Assembly (NCBI RefSeq): GCF_946885725.1
Contig: NZ_CAMPGZ010000146.1
Coordinates: 1 to 10,794 of the forward strand
Direction: 5' to 3'
Source of the DNA: an uncultured Nocardioides sp.
GTDB taxonomy: Bacteria; Actinomycetota; Actinomycetes; Propionibacteriales; Nocardioidaceae
DNA: 10,794 nucleotides
Below the pieces are notes generated by a model, which saw nothing but the letters and a program-made list of their open reading frames with translations, had not been told where the DNA came from and made no database searches. The position numbers and the translations under genes are program-made. Positions 1,170-8,872 of this stretch are shown piece by piece. Positions within the stretch are counted from its first letter, which is position 1, and each line of letters opens with the position of its first letter.

Positions 1170-2732
1170 ATGGCCGTCCCGACCTTCGTGGACCGGGTGT
1201 CCCTCCACGTCACCGCCGGACGTGGAGGCAACGGCGTCGCGTCGGTGCACCGGGAGAAGTTCAAGCCGCTGGGCGGCCCCGACGGCGGTAACGGCGGTCC
1301 CGGGGGCAGCGTGATCCTGCGCGTCGACCCGGACGTCACGACGCTGGTCGACTACCACCACAGCCCGCACCGTCGCGCCGAGCACGGCGGGCACGGCGCC
1401 GGCGGCCACCGCAACGGCGCGCACGGCGCCGACCTCGTGCTGGCCGTCCCGGACGGCACCGTCGTCAAGGACGAGCAGGGCAACGTGCTGGCCGACCTCG
1501 TCGGCGCCGGCACCGAGATGGTCGTGGCCGAGGGCGGCCGCGGCGGCCTGGGCAACGCCGCGCTGGCCTCGTCGAAGCGCAAGGCTCCTGGCTTCGCGCT
1601 GCTCGGCGAGCCCGGCGACGACCGCGTGGTCGTGCTCGAGCTCAAGGTCGTCGCGGACATCGGCCTGGTCGGCTTCCCCAGCGCGGGCAAGTCCAGCCTG
1701 ATCGCCGCCCTGTCGCGAGCGCGGCCGAAGATCGCCGACTACCCGTTCACCACGCTCGTGCCGAACCTCGGCGTGGTGACCGCCGGCGACGTGACGTTCA
1801 CCGTCGCCGACGTACCCGGACTCATCGAGGGCGCCAGCGAGGGCCGCGGTCTCGGCCACGACTTCCTGCGCCACGTCGAGCGCTGCGCCGCGCTCGTGCA
1901 CGTCATCGACACCGCGACGATGGAGCCGGGGCGCGACCCGCTCAGCGACCTGGACGTGATCGAGGGTGAGCTCTCCAAGTACGGCGGGCTGGAGGACCGG
2001 CCCCGGCTGGTCGTGCTCAACAAGGTCGACGTGCCCGACGGCCGCGACCTCGCCGAGATCGTGCTTCCGGATCTCGAGGCGCGCGGGCTGAAGGTGCTGA
2101 TGGTGTCCGCGGCGAGCCACGAGGGACTGCGCGAGCTCTCGTTCGCGATGGCCGAGATCGTCGCCGCCGCGCGGGCCGCGAAGCCCGTGGTCGAGCCGAC
2201 CCGCATCGTGCTGCGCCCCCCGGCGGCCGCGGGCGGTCCGGAGTTCACCATCAAGCAGACCGCCGACGGCTGGCGCGTGCGCGGCGAGAAGCCCGAGCGC
2301 TGGGTGCGCCAGACCGACTTCAGCAACGACGAGGCGGTCGGCTTCCTCGCGGACCGGCTCAACCGGCTCGGCGTCGAGGAGCAGCTGCTCGAGCTTGGCG
2401 CCGAGGAGGGCGACGCCGTCCTCATCGGCGACGAGGACAACGCGGTCGTCTTCGACTTCAAGCCGATGATGGAGGCGGGCGCCGAGATCCTCGGCCGCCG
2501 CGGCGAGGACACCCGCTTCGAGGAGTCCCGGCCCGCCGCCCGGCGCCGTCGGGCGATCCAGGAGGCCATGGCGACCCGGGCGCCCGGCGAGACCCGCGCC
2601 GACGTGGCCCGCCGACTCGGCGTCACCGAGGCCGACGTCGACGCTGCTACCGCCGAGCTCGGCGACGAGACACCCGAGGACTGGGGCTGGAGCGAGGACG
2701 ACCCCGACGCGGCCGGGGGCGAGGCCAGGTGA
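1170..2732 (+). CDS. obgE: Obg family GTPase (ribosome assembly, CgtA)
   Basis: A 520-residue Obg GTPase, which assists late 50S assembly and links growth to nucleotide levels. Order of parts: glycine-rich Obg fold at about 1-160; P-loop GFPSAGKSS at 168-176; switch region FTTLVPN from 193; G3 DVPGL at 214-218; G4 NKVD at 284-287; G5 SAA at 313-315; C-terminal OCT domain at about 359-430; then a charged 90-residue tail. Actinobacterial Obg proteins usually carry both the OCT domain and a tail. Seven histidines fall in residues 63-85, which is unusual. ATG at 1170 follows AGGAG at 1155-1159 by 10 nt. The stop overlaps the proB start, suggesting translational coupling. Confidence 0.97.
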
Positions 2733-3847
2733 GCCTGCGCCGCGAGCTGGCTTCCGCGCGACGCGTCGTGGTCAAGGTCGGCTCGTCGTCGCTGACCACC
2801 GCGGAGGGCGGCATCGACCCCGAGCGGGTCAGCGCGCTGGTCGACGCGCTCGCCGCCGTACGACGCCGCGGCGCGGAGGTCGTGCTGGTGTCCTCCGGCG
2901 CCATCGCCGCGGGGCTCGCGCCGCTGTCGCTGGCCCGGCGTCCTCGCGACCTGGCCACCCAGCAGGCCGCGGCGTCCGTGGGGCAGGGGCTGCTCGTGCA
3001 CCGCTACACCGAGGAGTTCGCGCGTCACGATGTCGCCGTCGGGCAGGTGCTGCTCACGGTCGACGACGTCACGCGCCGCAGCCACTACCGCAACGCCTAC
3101 CGCACGTTCGCCAAGCTGCTCGAGCTCGGCGTCCTGCCGATCGTCAACGAGAACGACACCGTCGCCACCACCGAGATCCGCTTCGGCGACAACGACCGGC
3201 TCGCCGCGCTGGTCGCCCACCTCGTGCACGCCGACCTGCTGGTGCTGCTCAGCGACGTCGAGGGGCTGTTCGACGGCAACCCCGCACGCGAGGGGACCCG
3301 GCTGCTCACCGACGTGACGACCGAGGACGACCTCGAGGGCGTCAGCATCGGCCGCACCGGCCCCGCCGGGGTCGGCACGGGCGGCATGCAGACCAAGGTC
3401 GAGGCGGCCAAGATCGCCACCGGCGCCGGCATCCCGGTCGTGCTGACCTCGGCGGACCGGGCGTCCGCGGCGCTCGCCGGGGACGAGGTCGGCACGGTGT
3501 TCCACCCCACCGGCCGGCGGCGGCCCACGCGGCTGCTGTGGCTCGCCCACGCCACGGAGGGCAAGGGCCGGGTGCACCTCGACGACGGTGCGGTGCAGGC
3601 GCTCGTGGAGCGTCGGGCGTCGTTGCTGCCCGCCGGCATCACCGACGTGACCGGGGCGTTCGAGGCCGGCGACCCGGTCGACCTCGTCGACCCGCGCGGC
3701 GAGGTGGTCGCGCGTGGTCTGGTCAACTACGACTCGACCGAGCTGCCCGGCCTGCTGGGCAAATCGACTCGCGACCTGGCGCGCGAGCTGGGATCGTCCT
3801 ACGAACGCGAGGTCGTGCACCGCGACGACCTCGTCGTGCTGCGCTGA
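2729..3847 (+). CDS. proB: Glutamate 5-kinase
   Basis: A 372-residue enzyme that phosphorylates L-glutamate to glutamyl 5-phosphate, the first and normally proline-inhibited step of proline synthesis in the cytoplasm. The amino acid kinase domain covers about 10-250: KVGSSS at 16-21, SSGAIAAG at 55-62, NENDT at 140-144, FGDND at 152-156, SDVEGL at 175-180 and GTGGMQTK at 216-223. A PUA domain follows from about 278 to 360, giving the two-domain form also seen in E. coli. The GTG start at 2729 overlaps the obgE TGA in a GTGA arrangement; the next start would cut into the kinase fold. Its partner proA is not adjacent but lies about 550 bp downstream, past a small unknown gene. Confidence 0.96.
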
Positions 3848-5703: not shown

Positions 5704-6885
5704 GTGACCCGCAGGTTCACCACCGAGCAGCGACGCGCGCGTCTGGCCCGGCGCCACCGGCTCGTGCCGTCCTTGCGCACCGACGACGTCGTGGCCGTCG
5801 CCGACTCCGTCGTCGCCCTGCACTCGACCGACCCGGTCACGGTGTACCTCTCCTCGGCCGCCCGGATGGCGCACCCCTCCATCGAGGCGGTCGAGCGGGC
5901 GCTGTACGACGACCGCGTGCTGGTGCGCCACCACGCGATGCGCCGCACGCTGTGGCTCGCGCGCCCCGAGGTGGTGCGCTGGATGCACGCGGCGTGCACG
6001 CGCAAGGTGGCGGCCGTCGAGCACCGCCGTACGGTCAAGTACCTCACCGACAACGGTGTGGACGACGCCGAGGAGTGGATCGCGGGCGCGCGCAAGCAGG
6101 TCCTCGACCTGCTGCACACCCGTGGCCCGACCAGCACCCGCGACATCGGGGAGGCGCTGCCCGAGCTGCGCGTGCCGCTGCGCCTCGCGCCGGGCAAGTC
6201 CTACGCCGCGAACATCTCCGCCCACACCCGCGTCCCGCTGCTGCTCGGCTTCGAGGGCGAGGTGGTGCGCACGCGGCCGCTCGGCACGTGGGTCAGCGGC
6301 GCCTACCTTTGGGCGGCGATGGACTCCTGGATGCCCGGCGGCGTCGGCGACCTCGCCGAGGAGGAGGGCGCCGTCCCTCTCGCCGACGCGTACCTCCGCC
6401 GGTTCGGCCCGGTCACGCAGCGTGACCTCCAGTGGTGGGCGGGCTGGACGGTGGCGCTGACCAAGCGCGCCCTCGCGGGCTGTGGCGCCGAACCGGTCGA
6501 GCTCGAGGAAGGCCCCGGCTGGGTGGCCGCCGGTGACGCGGAGAGCGCCGACGACGAGCCGCTGCCGTCGTGGGTGGCGCTGCTGCCGAGCCTCGACCCG
6601 ACCACGATGGGCTGGAAGGACCGGGCCTGGTACCTCGACCCCGCCTGCGCCGACGCGTTCGACAGCGTCGGCAACGCGGGCGCGACGATCTGGGCCGACG
6701 GCCGGGTGGTCGGCGCCTGGGCGATGGGGGAGGACGGTAGCTTCCGCGCCCACTACTTCCTCGACGTGGACGCCTCCACGCGCGCGGCCGTCGAGGAGGA
6801 GGCGGAGTGGCTACGGAGCCTCCTCGGTGAGACGCGCTTCTCGGTGCGGTTCCCCGGGCACATGCAGAAGGCGCTGAGCCGCTGA
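5704..6885 (+). CDS. Winged-helix DNA-binding domain protein, AlkZ/YcaQ-like superfamily
   Basis: A 393-residue protein of the winged-helix family (HTH_42, PF06224) that includes the DNA glycosylases AlkZ and YcaQ, which remove bulky alkylated or crosslinked bases. Family-like stretches are the N-terminal helix RRARLARRHRL, LHSTDPVTVYLSS at 39-51, the helical middle ending in the LHTRGPTSTRDIGEALPEL winged-helix segment, and the C-terminal WALLP/LDPTTMGWKDR region. Known AlkZ and YcaQ carry a Gln-x-Gln or Gln-x-Asp catalytic motif near this N-terminal site; here the matching place reads HSTD, so glycosylase activity is uncertain. The GTG start appears leaderless. It is the first gene of a three-gene run; its stop overlaps the next start by one base (TGATG). 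Confidence 0.85.
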   Translation: MTRRFTTEQRRARLARRHRLVPSLRTDDVVAVADSVVALHSTDPVTVYLSSAARMAHPSIEAVERALYDDRVLVRHHAMRRTLWLARPEVVRWMHAACTRKVAAVEHRRTVKYLTDNGVDDAEEWIAGARKQVLDLLHTRGPTSTRDIGEALPELRVPLRLAPGKSYAANISAHTRVPLLLGFEGEVVRTRPLGTWVSGAYLWAAMDSWMPGGVGDLAEEEGAVPLADAYLRRFGPVTQRDLQWWAGWTVALTKRALAGCGAEPVELEEGPGWVAAGDAESADDEPLPSWVALLPSLDPTTMGWKDRAWYLDPACADAFDSVGNAGATIWADGRVVGAWAMGEDGSFRAHYFLDVDASTRAAVEEEAEWLRSLLGETRFSVRFPGHMQKALSR

Positions 6886-7739
6886 TGCTCGCCGCCGCCC
6901 TCGCCGCGGCCGCCTCCGCCGGCGGCTTCGCGATCTCGACGTCGCTGCAGCACCAGGCCGCGGAGCGCGTGGACGCACCGGTCGGTGCCTTCGGGCTGCT
7001 GCTCCGCCTGGCCCGGCAGCCGGTGTGGCTGATGGGGATCGCGTTCGGCGGGCTCGCCTTCGGCTTGCACGCGCTCGCGCTCAGCCTCGGCGCCCTCGCG
7101 CTCGTGCAGCCGATCATGGTCTCGGGCATCGTGTTCGCTGTCGTGGTCCGGGCTGCGCTCGAGCGGTCGTTCCCCACGACGCCCGAGCTGTGGGCGGTGT
7201 CGGCGACGGCCGTCGGCCTGGCCCTGTTCCTGGTCGCCACGGACCCCACCGAGTCGGGCGCGGAGCCCCGCCGTACCGCTGCCGCGGCGCTCGTCGTGAG
7301 CGCGGGGGTCGTGTCGGCCGTGCTGGTCGCGACCCACCGCCGCTGGCGCGTCGACCTGCGCCCGATGGTGCTCGGTATGGCCGCCGGACTGTTGTTCGGC
7401 CTGTCGGCGGGACTGACGAAGCTGGTGACCCACGACCTCACCGAGCCGCGGTGGTCGACCGTGGTCGCGGCGCTCGGCGTGGCCGTCTGCGGGCTGTCCG
7501 GGGTCGCGGTCAACCAGCAGGCCTACCGGCTCGGACCGCTGTCCGCGTCGATGCCGGCGCTCAACGTGGTGAGCGTCTGCCTGGCCGTCGTTTTCGGCGG
7601 TGTCGCCTTCGGGGACTACCCCTCGCTGGGTACGCTCGCGGTCGCGGGGCAGGTCGTCGCGCTGGTGCTGATCGGCATCGGGCTCCGGGTGGTCGCGGTC
7701 GACCTGGACACCGAGGGCGTCACGGCTCGGGCCGACTGA
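6885..7739 (+). CDS. DMT-superfamily (EamA/NIPA-like) integral membrane transporter
   Basis: A 284-residue, very hydrophobic protein with about nine or ten predicted membrane helices, roughly at 1-19, 46-65, 68-90, 102-118, 131-149, 160-180, 190-207, 220-241 and 247-270. The sequence LALVQPIMVSGIVFAVV and the early LQHQAAERV are typical of actinobacterial drug/metabolite transporter proteins, and the later half repeats the pattern GPLSASMPALNVVSVCLAVVFG, as in families built from two EamA-like units. The substrate cannot be told from sequence; export of a metabolite or transport of a cation (NIPA-like) are both possible. The ATG overlaps the upstream stop by one base, so translation is likely coupled with the winged-helix gene. 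The next gene follows after 14 bp. Confidence 0.85.
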   Translation: MLAAALAAAASAGGFAISTSLQHQAAERVDAPVGAFGLLLRLARQPVWLMGIAFGGLAFGLHALALSLGALALVQPIMVSGIVFAVVVRAALERSFPTTPELWAVSATAVGLALFLVATDPTESGAEPRRTAAAALVVSAGVVSAVLVATHRRWRVDLRPMVLGMAAGLLFGLSAGLTKLVTHDLTEPRWSTVVAALGVAVCGLSGVAVNQQAYRLGPLSASMPALNVVSVCLAVVFGGVAFGDYPSLGTLAVAGQVVALVLIGIGLRVVAVDLDTEGVTARAD

Positions 7740-7740
7740 A

Positions 7741-7748
7741 AGGGGGAG
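7741..7748 (+). promoter_or_regulatory. Strong Shine-Dalgarno of the duplicated membrane protein
   Basis: AGGGGGAG lies 5 nt before ATG 7754 and directly after the stop of the transporter gene. It supports ATG 7754 over the adjacent GTG 7757. Confidence 0.7.
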
Positions 7749-7753
7749 CGAGG

Positions 7754-8698
7754 ATGGTGCAGGTCCTCGCGGTCGGCCTGCTGGCCGGCTGGCACGCCGC
7801 CAACTGGGGCGCCTACAAGGACACCCCCTACGAAGGCTTCCGCTGGGCGAGCTACGTCCGGAGCGTCGTCGTCGCCGGCGCCGCGGCTCTGGTGCTCGGG
7901 TGGCTCGCGGGCTTCGACTCGGTCCCGTCGCTGCTCGTGCTGCTCGGCATGGTCTACACGATCGAGCGCTTCGCCACCGAGTGGTGGAAGTCGATCGTCC
8001 GCGAGCAGGACCAGAGCGTCTACACGATCCCCATGCGGCTCGGCGTTCGCGGCCGCACCGTCGACCGGCGCGGACGCCGTTACGCCGTCGGGATCGGCAC
8101 CGTGGTCGTGCTGGTGCTGCTGGCCGGCGCGGGCGAGCTCGTGCAGCGCTCCCTGCCGCCGCAGCCGTGGCTGGTCACGGTCCTGGTCGGCGGTGGCGGC
8201 GGCTGGCTGACCGCGGTCGGCGGAGCCTGGAAGGACGCCCCGATCGAGGGGTTCAGCGGCTGGAAGTTCCTGCGCAGCCCCGTCGTCGCGACCGCGTGGG
8301 CGGTCCCGCTGTCCGCGCTCACCGACAACTGGGTGGTGCTGGCCATCTCCGCGGCCGGCTTCGCGGTGGCCGGCATCGAGACCTACAAGACGTTCCTCAC
8401 CGGCGGCCGGCCGCCGGGCAAGTTCGCCGACAAGCCGGTGCGGTACGTCGCCTCCACCGCCCGCGGCGTGTTCGCGCTGCTGCACGCGCTGCTGTGGGCG
8501 GCGCTCGCCCTCGGGATCGCGGTGAGCGTCTCCCTCGGCCTGGTCGCGCCCACGCAGCAGTTCGCGTCCTCCCTGATCGGCCTCGTCGCGCTGGTGCTGG
8601 CGGGCTCCGTGCCGGTGGCGCTGTCGTGGGTCACGCTGCGACGCCGTACCGTCTCCGTGCCGGGCTCCGTGCACGAGCGCGCCGACGAGGGCCGCTAG
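7754..8698 (+). CDS. Integral membrane protein of unknown function built from two copies of one module
   Basis: A 314-residue protein I cannot assign to a named family. Residues 13-75 align with 151-213 without a gap at an offset of 138, with 24 of 63 positions identical by my count. Shared core: W(x)5GA[YW]KD[TA]PxEGF, then RSxVV, and 48 residues after the shared lysine IE[RT][FY]xT. Each unit is a polar entry motif followed by two hydrophobic stretches and an IE motif. Further hydrophobic segments are at about 111-124, 239-262 and 271-294, and the C-terminus is basic and polar. The conserved K, D, E and R residues near membrane segments could line a site or hold the halves together. It lies 14 bp after the transporter gene and may act with it. 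Confidence 0.85.
   Translation: MVQVLAVGLLAGWHAANWGAYKDTPYEGFRWASYVRSVVVAGAAALVLGWLAGFDSVPSLLVLLGMVYTIERFATEWWKSIVREQDQSVYTIPMRLGVRGRTVDRRGRRYAVGIGTVVVLVLLAGAGELVQRSLPPQPWLVTVLVGGGGGWLTAVGGAWKDAPIEGFSGWKFLRSPVVATAWAVPLSALTDNWVVLAISAAGFAVAGIETYKTFLTGGRPPGKFADKPVRYVASTARGVFALLHALLWAALALGIAVSVSLGLVAPTQQFASSLIGLVALVLAGSVPVALSWVTLRRRTVSVPGSVHERADEGR
7790..7978 (+). repeat. Internal protein repeat, copy A (residues 13-75)
   Basis: The first module of the membrane protein holds GAYKDTPYEGF and ends IERFAT. The resemblance to copy B is clear in protein but weak in DNA, so the duplication is old. Confidence 0.8.
8204..8392 (+). repeat. Internal protein repeat, copy B (residues 151-213)
   Basis: The second module holds GAWKDAPIEGF and ends IETYKT. 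The distance between the two motifs is 48 residues, the same as in copy A, and no gap is needed in between. Confidence 0.8.
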
Positions 8699-8701
8699 GC
8701 T
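8696..8701 (+). promoter_or_regulatory. -10 element overlapping a stop codon, leaderless promoter for the nadD unit
   Basis: TAGGCT fits TANNNT and ends 6 nt before ATG 8708. Its first three bases are the TAG stop codon of the preceding gene. No Shine-Dalgarno is seen upstream of 8708, so the message is probably leaderless. Confidence 0.6.
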
Positions 8702-8707
8702 GACGGC

Positions 8708-8872
8708 ATGTCGCTCACGCCTCTGGTCACGACCGTGGTCCCCGCCCTGTCCGAGGGCGTGGGCTCCGAGCCCGCCGTCAGCCCGATCGCCATCGGCATC
8801 GGCACCTTCGTCGTCCTCGCCGCGATGATGCTCGCCCTGCTGGCCTTCGGCGCGGGCCGCGACCACTCCTGA
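8708..8872 (+). CDS. 54-residue single-span membrane protein upstream of nadD
   Basis: A short gene of 54 codons plus stop. The product starts MSLTPLVTTVVPALSEG, has one membrane helix at about 27-49 (PIAIGIGTFVVLAAMMLALL within it), and ends with the short polar tail GRDHS. The first segment is probably outside and the short basic/acid tail inside, but the topology is not certain. Evidence that it is real: GC-rich third positions, a -10 element exactly 6 nt upstream, a stop 23 bp before nadD, and no room for another gene there. From memory, small one-helix proteins ending GR-H-S precede nadD in related actinobacteria; this needs checking. Function unknown. Confidence 0.75.
   Translation: MSLTPLVTTVVPALSEGVGSEPAVSPIAIGIGTFVVLAAMMLALLAFGAGRDHS

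Follow-up and report, generated by a model that had tools for sequence, protein, structure and literature searches.

What kind of protein is encoded at positions 7754 to 8698 (forward strand) of a contig from an uncultured Nocardioides species, and in what process does it participate? The contig (NZ_CAMPGZ010000146.1) was analyzed over its full 10,794 nucleotides, which we call the window. The product of the gene (P0001) is a membrane protein of 314 residues whose two halves share a charged motif, and its nearest relatives are actinobacterial. As judged from sequence searches, the protein represents a membrane protein family that is undescribed, with no name found in Pfam or NCBIfam, and its role is possibly that of an enzyme. 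The third-position GC content of the gene is 0.971, similar to that of the surrounding genes; an antisense open reading frame (ORF) at 7616 to 8866, with a value of 0.734, was rejected as a real gene.

The family has thousands of relatives in at least seven bacterial phyla. Three protein searches, which may overlap, returned 512 relatives (E ≤ 1e-3) among 7998 scored candidates, 2681 among 3410 and 943 among 3955, with 120 relatives listed for each search. A scan of one genome per species revealed 36 loci, which were located with peptide patterns taken from P0001 and so do not sample genomes at random. They occur in Actinomycetota, Poribacteria, Myxococcota, Gemmatimonadota, Acidobacteriota, Bacteroidota and Calditrichota, with further loci in Patescibacteria-type lineages and on one contig labelled Dadabacteria. 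Two alignments were made: A2, with 69 rows (P0001, 37 of 120 listed relatives and 31 of the 36 loci), and A3, a broad set of 71 members. Identity to the window protein is 31 to 42% for the 29 rows of A2 that are not actinobacterial. All 12 genomes examined carry a single copy. Occurrence is patchy: the gene was found in one of 198 Actinomycetota genomes (the phylum of genome G003), two of 247 Bacteroidota genomes (the phylum of G007) and one of 188 genomes in the phylum of G008, in two of 394 in the class of G002, and in three of 245 and one of 186 in the families of G002 and G003. These counts include the centre genomes, and misses are possible because at most 5 to 12 candidates were scored per genome. 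In a tree of 37 members, which carries a long-branch warning, the actinobacterial members form one branch (support 100/99), and neighborhood types are grouped on it, needing 7 changes where shuffling gave a mean of 11.7 and none of 200 shuffles was as low.

The initial annotation did not recognize the family, and the database searches agree with it. Nothing in Pfam rises above the cut-off for P0001 or five relatives, and at E ≤ 0.1 no Pfam family is common to more than two of the 71 members, all matches being weak (25 of 26 families listed). DUF1290 (E 0.0018) and Phage_holin_3_5 (E 0.0005) each match one member and were set aside as not common to the family. NCBIfam has no family for the two members tested (P0001 at E ≤ 10), and the best match of the 71-member profile among PDB sequences has an E value of 0.11, with none below 0.1. 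Literature searches on the gene combination described below found no paper.

The internal repeat is real, but diverged. The initial annotation had counted 24 identities when residues 13-75 are laid on residues 151-213 at an offset of 138, and the same count out of 63 was obtained; at the 15 remaining offsets between 130 and 145, identities range from 2 to 9. A Smith-Waterman alignment of the first half to the second scores 85, and the shuffle maxima are 66 (5000 plain shuffles) and 70 (5000 class-preserving shuffles). The self-alignment that the annotation had suggested as a check reveals the repeat clearly, for hhalign of the half profiles from 69 aligned relatives gives a probability of 98.6 and an E value of 1.3e-15 over 91 columns, compared with probabilities of 7.7 for reversed columns and 15.9 for the best of 30 column-permuted controls. 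The duplication had also been called exact, which is ruled out by the divergence of the copies: only 101 of 189 bases are common to the two stretches. Among 70 members, identity between the copies over residues 3-52 has a median of 34% and a range of 23 to 47%.

The register of the repeat changes along its length. A gap-free match had been described for all 63 residues; it holds for residues 3-52, the only part for which offset 138 is the best register, and is ruled out past residue 52, where the family profile shifts by 5. Over residues 66-84 the profile favors offset 133, which pairs E76xxK79 with E209xxK212. Because of this preference, the earlier pairing of IERFAT with IETYKT (IE[RT][FY]xT, 48 residues after the shared lysine) is probably fortuitous, a register error. 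In helix 4 the favored offset is about 129. No offset stands out for residues 60-69 or for the loop at 84-106, and the loop scores never rise above zero.

Two confident models (predicted local distance difference test scores of 92.5 and 95.4), of the window protein and of a 279-residue Mucilaginibacter relative, bear out the claim of an integral membrane protein and predict a core of eight helices in two tandem 4-helix units. Because the helix pattern of both models fits tandem units, the repeats would run parallel rather than inverted. By model, hhalign and register, unit 1 spans residues 1-138 (7754..8167, on the forward strand like the other features of this gene), with helices at 2-27, 31-52, 60-82 and 106-133, and unit 2 spans residues 139-260 (8168..8533), with helices at 139-165, 169-186, 193-214 and 234-260. 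A ninth helix in the model of the window protein (residues 266-297, 8549..8644) lies outside the conserved core. It is missing from the Mucilaginibacter model, and rows with at least 20 residues opposite this region number 37 of 69 in A2 and 11 of 71 in A3. A Foldseek search of the PDB with each model gave nothing at E 0.001 or better, and structure comparisons of the models gave no clear match to any fold, UbiA and SWEET included.

The conserved charges occupy equivalent places in the two units. In each, WGxxKDxPxEGF ends helix 1, RS starts helix 2, and ExxK ends helix 3; a loop with basic residues follows, and then an arginine that starts helix 4. GAYKDTPYEGF and GAWKDAPIEGF, each followed by RSxVV, are found as the initial annotation had them, and relatives keep both copies. 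By a strict pattern, copy 1 (WGAYKDTPYEGF, residues 18-29, 7805..7840) is kept in 66 of 69 rows of A2 and copy 2 (GGAWKDAPIEGF, residues 156-167, 8219..8254) in 68 of 69. The three copy-1 misses are L024 and L035, which start late by the start chosen, and L034, which reads KDSLYEHF; the sole copy-2 miss, L013, reads LGAWKD. The ExxK elements of repeat 1 (E76 and K79, 7979..7990) and repeat 2 (E209 and K212, 8378..8389) are present in all 71 rows of A3, as are K160, D161, R174 and K223. D23, E27 and R36 are kept in 70 of 70 rows of A3, and at least 67 of the 71 members keep K22, D23, E27, R36, R72, R83, Q87, R109, E165, K171 and R237.

Loop composition suggests which side of the membrane these residues face. 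Lysine plus arginine average 4.87 in loop 3-4 (27 residues), 4.62 in loop 7-8 (24 residues), 1.19 in loop 1-2 (11 residues) and 1.04 in loop 5-6 (12 residues). On the opposite side, where the four loops are 6 to 9 residues long, the averages are 0.12 to 0.57. The invariant K, D, E and R residues are thus placed on the predicted cytoplasmic face, and in the models the motif residues would lie at the cytoplasmic membrane edge and not in mid-membrane. Such a one-sided set of charged residues suits catalysis or tight anion binding.

Gene neighbors were counted by tblastn at 33 non-actinobacterial loci. A Gfo/Idh/MocA gene (Gfo) lies upstream of the target on the same strand at 24 of them, and a GMC gene precedes Gfo at 22; at the two Gfo loci where no GMC gene was seen (L008 and L019), only 900 and 801 bases of upstream sequence are present. 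The gap between the Gfo and target alignments is 16 to 186 bases, except at L025 (524) and L028 (688). The 24 Gfo loci are not independent, since L004 and L005 are near-identical. No Gfo gene was found upstream at the remaining nine (L010, L011, L017, L022, L023, L032, L033, L034 and L036), and L017, L022, L032 and L033 have less than 650 bases of upstream sequence. The linkage recurs in Poribacteria, Myxococcota, Gemmatimonadota, Acidobacteriota, Calditrichota and Bacteroidota, and the target and a Gfo relative (E ≤ 1e-50) co-occur in the same two of 247 Bacteroidota genomes.

Some of these neighborhoods include further genes of lipid or glycan metabolism. Certain Bacteroidota loci continue with one or another of these: a gene for a CDP-alcohol phosphotransferase whose N-terminal region is long, one for a GT4 glycosyltransferase, one for an epimerase-like protein, or a flippase-like gene of the LPG_synthase_TM/TIGR00374 type. 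Among the actinobacterial loci, L051 has an MGDG-synthase-like glycosyltransferase near the target, and L002 has PAP2, GT2 and VTT/DedA genes. Together, the neighbors point to lipid or lipid-linked sugar metabolism.

Several individual loci have features of their own. At L014, a Bacteroidota metagenome-assembled genome, two CDP-alcohol phosphotransferases with long N-terminal regions (1965-3128 and 6902-8116) flank GMC-Gfo-target. The second resembles AF2299 and IPCT-DIPPS, and therefore an inositol or other CDP-alcohol lipid is possible at this locus. Upstream of GMC, several Bacteroidota loci encode a 180-residue protein that matches nothing in Pfam or NCBIfam (L014 1235-1777, reverse strand; L012, L015, L016, L018 and L027). 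In Calditrichota, an Omp85-domain gene beside a lipoprotein-like gene is near GMC-Gfo-target (L021 234-3241, reverse strand), and by eye a similar pair is near these genes in Poribacteria (L005 6830-9945, reverse strand).

Actinobacterial loci have a different arrangement. In the window, a DMT-family transporter gene (6885..7739, forward strand; its NCBIfam DMT_1 score is 77.4 bits, the cut-off being 50) is 14 bases upstream of the target and is itself preceded by an AlkZ-like gene (Pfam). Adjacent GMC and Gfo/Idh/MocA genes were not found in the window. From their translations, we take the remaining genes to be rplU, rpmA, obgE, proB, proA, nadD, rsfS and a histidine phosphatase. The interval from the target to nadD contains an ORF of 54 residues (8708-8872, forward strand), in which a single stretch is hydrophobic. 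At five of six actinobacterial loci the target has a DMT gene upstream, and five genomes have one or two such DMT genes each. In the sixth, Pedococcus, genes for Gfo (40% identity), GMC (34%) and DMT stand in a row on another contig than the target. A second Intrasporangiaceae genome, G785, also has adjacent DMT, Gfo and GMC genes, in an orientation unlike that of Pedococcus; among the 186 genomes of the family that holds both, the target was found in Pedococcus only. The DMT, Gfo and GMC genes of G785 (L055, 5404-8822), which stand together without the target, may form a unit of their own. From these clusters and the other loci it follows that the target, the GMC-Gfo pair and DMT are each linked to the others somewhere.

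Our preferred reading, which is tentative, is that the target works in the membrane as an enzyme on a lipid-linked sugar or cyclitol, within a pathway like that of DprE1 and DprE2. The 8-helix core of this integral membrane enzyme would derive from duplication of a 4-helix unit. Both copies of WGxxKDxPxEGF, RS, ExxK and the K/R loop after helix 3 would together make up a single charged site, pseudo-symmetric and located at the cytoplasmic surface of the membrane. This site may bind a phosphate-bearing lipid, and the enzyme would make or modify the lipid-linked sugar or cyclitol. A gene for a flavin adenine dinucleotide (FAD) oxidase next to one for a nicotinamide adenine dinucleotide (NAD) reductase suggests that a single polyol is oxidized and then reduced again, so in most lineages seen GMC, as a cytoplasmic FAD enzyme, and Gfo/Idh/MocA, as an NAD enzyme, might carry out these two steps. 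The DMT-type transporter would then perhaps move the product across the membrane. More broadly, the family might be a new type of membrane enzyme, with a fold unseen in the PDB, at the core of an undescribed pathway in which GMC and Gfo/Idh/MocA perform redox chemistry at the cytoplasmic face, with a lipid-linked sugar or cyclitol as substrate, and DMT or flippase-like proteins export it, the parts being linked in six phyla and unlinked in Actinomycetota; we regard this wider proposal as doubtful.

Several observations weigh against the enzyme proposal. Neither fold nor sequence match ties the target to any enzyme, and none of the neighbors examined identifies a substrate. L010, L011, L023, L034 and L036 lack the named partners in about 6 kb upstream, and G785, which has Gfo-GMC-DMT without the target, indicates that the parts are separable. 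No close Gfo relative was found in four target-bearing Nocardioidaceae genomes (best 27 to 33% identity) or in G008 and G010 (26%), and no Gfo-GMC pair was found in those four. In one Nocardioidaceae genome, G547, GMC relatives at 31 to 32% are about as near as those of Pedococcus, and no Gfo gene was found beside them. One-sided helical repeats also suit transporters. Alternatively, two parallel 4-helix repeats might alternate access as a transporter or flippase for a lipid-linked sugar, phospholipid or anionic metabolite, with the charged motifs as cytoplasmic gate and binding site. This role is nearly as likely as that of an enzyme.

The order GMC-Gfo-target at 22 of 33 loci would also fit a membrane anchor that serves as the electron or quinone partner of a cytoplasmic GMC protein and passes FADH2 electrons to the quinone pool. 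The nearest solved relatives of the GMC protein include FAD glucose dehydrogenase and fructose dehydrogenase, which in known cases give their electrons to a partner. However, cysteine is absent from the window protein, none of the 71 members contains CxxCH or CxxC, and the same residues are conserved where no GMC-Gfo pair is adjacent (actinobacterial rows, L036 and the L034 protein), which makes such a role quite improbable. Perhaps the neighbors mislead, and the target takes no part in an oxidoreductase or DMT pathway, being instead a membrane protein of general function, such as a regulatory or envelope-structural one. The patchy occurrence in Actinomycetota and Bacteroidota and the five loci lacking partners are consistent with this explanation, whereas the recurrence of the linkage from Poribacteria to Bacteroidota and the joint presence of target and Gfo in the same two Bacteroidota genomes argue against it, and we consider it unlikely, if somewhat less so than an electron partner.

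Whichever role applies, this is a cross-phylum membrane family with a clear internal duplication and a near-invariant charged site, and its recurring partner genes make the pathway idea testable. If the enzyme reading is true, redox editing of lipid-linked sugars would have another route besides DprE1/DprE2 and unrelated to it, and the family might also represent a new membrane fold.

Known membrane proteins offer partial likenesses. SWEET and semiSWEET transporters are built of two parallel helical repeats and form the top row of one structure comparison with the first model, at background level. In contrast, the units of the target have four helices, and no SWEET/PQ-loop Pfam match was found for P0001, five relatives or the 71 members (25 of 26 families listed). 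The target likewise has no DMT_1/EamA profile match (NCBIfam at E ≤ 10; Pfam), whereas the upstream gene does match DMT_1. The CDP-alcohol phosphotransferases AF2299 and IPCT-DIPPS (PDB 4o6m and 4mnd) have relatives encoded beside the target in several Bacteroidota loci; these are neighbors of the target and not its relatives.

UbiA prenyltransferases have nine helices and two aspartate-rich regions, according to one published account (PMC11127046). The target is similar in having eight to nine helices and conserved polar motifs in two places at the membrane face. The conserved D23 and D161 of the target, unlike the aspartates of UbiA, are single and lie within KDxPxEG. For Mg-diphosphate, the aspartate-rich motifs of UbiA follow the patterns NDxxDxxxD and DxxxD; the former is present in none of the 71 members and the latter in three, P0001 not among them. 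No UbiA Pfam match was found for P0001 or five relatives (E ≤ 10) or for the 71 members (E ≤ 0.1; 25 of 26 families listed), and neither sequence nor motif places the target in the UbiA superfamily.

DprE1 and DprE2 belong to families other than GMC and Gfo/Idh/MocA. In the target loci the oxidase is instead a GMC protein and the reductase a Gfo/Idh/MocA protein, the likeness to the DprE system being drawn here from genes, and the target differs from the membrane enzyme of that system in its lack of a UbiA match or aspartate-rich motif. As described in the same source, DprE1/DprE2 act on decaprenyl-phosphoryl ribose in a mycobacterial system with a polytopic prenyl-phosphate enzyme (the UbiA-family DPPR synthase) and a proposed SMR exporter (PMC11127046). 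The target loci resemble it in having a gene for an FAD oxidase next to one for an NAD reductase (at 22 of the 33 non-actinobacterial loci, with Gfo at 24) and a membrane partner that is polytopic. Some lineages also have a DMT-type transporter, and some neighborhoods include enzymes of lipid or glycan metabolism (CDP-alcohol phosphotransferase, GT4, LPG_synthase_TM, MGDG-synthase-like glycosyltransferase, PAP2, GT2 and VTT/DedA). By this analogy, the target would correspond to the membrane enzyme of the DprE system.
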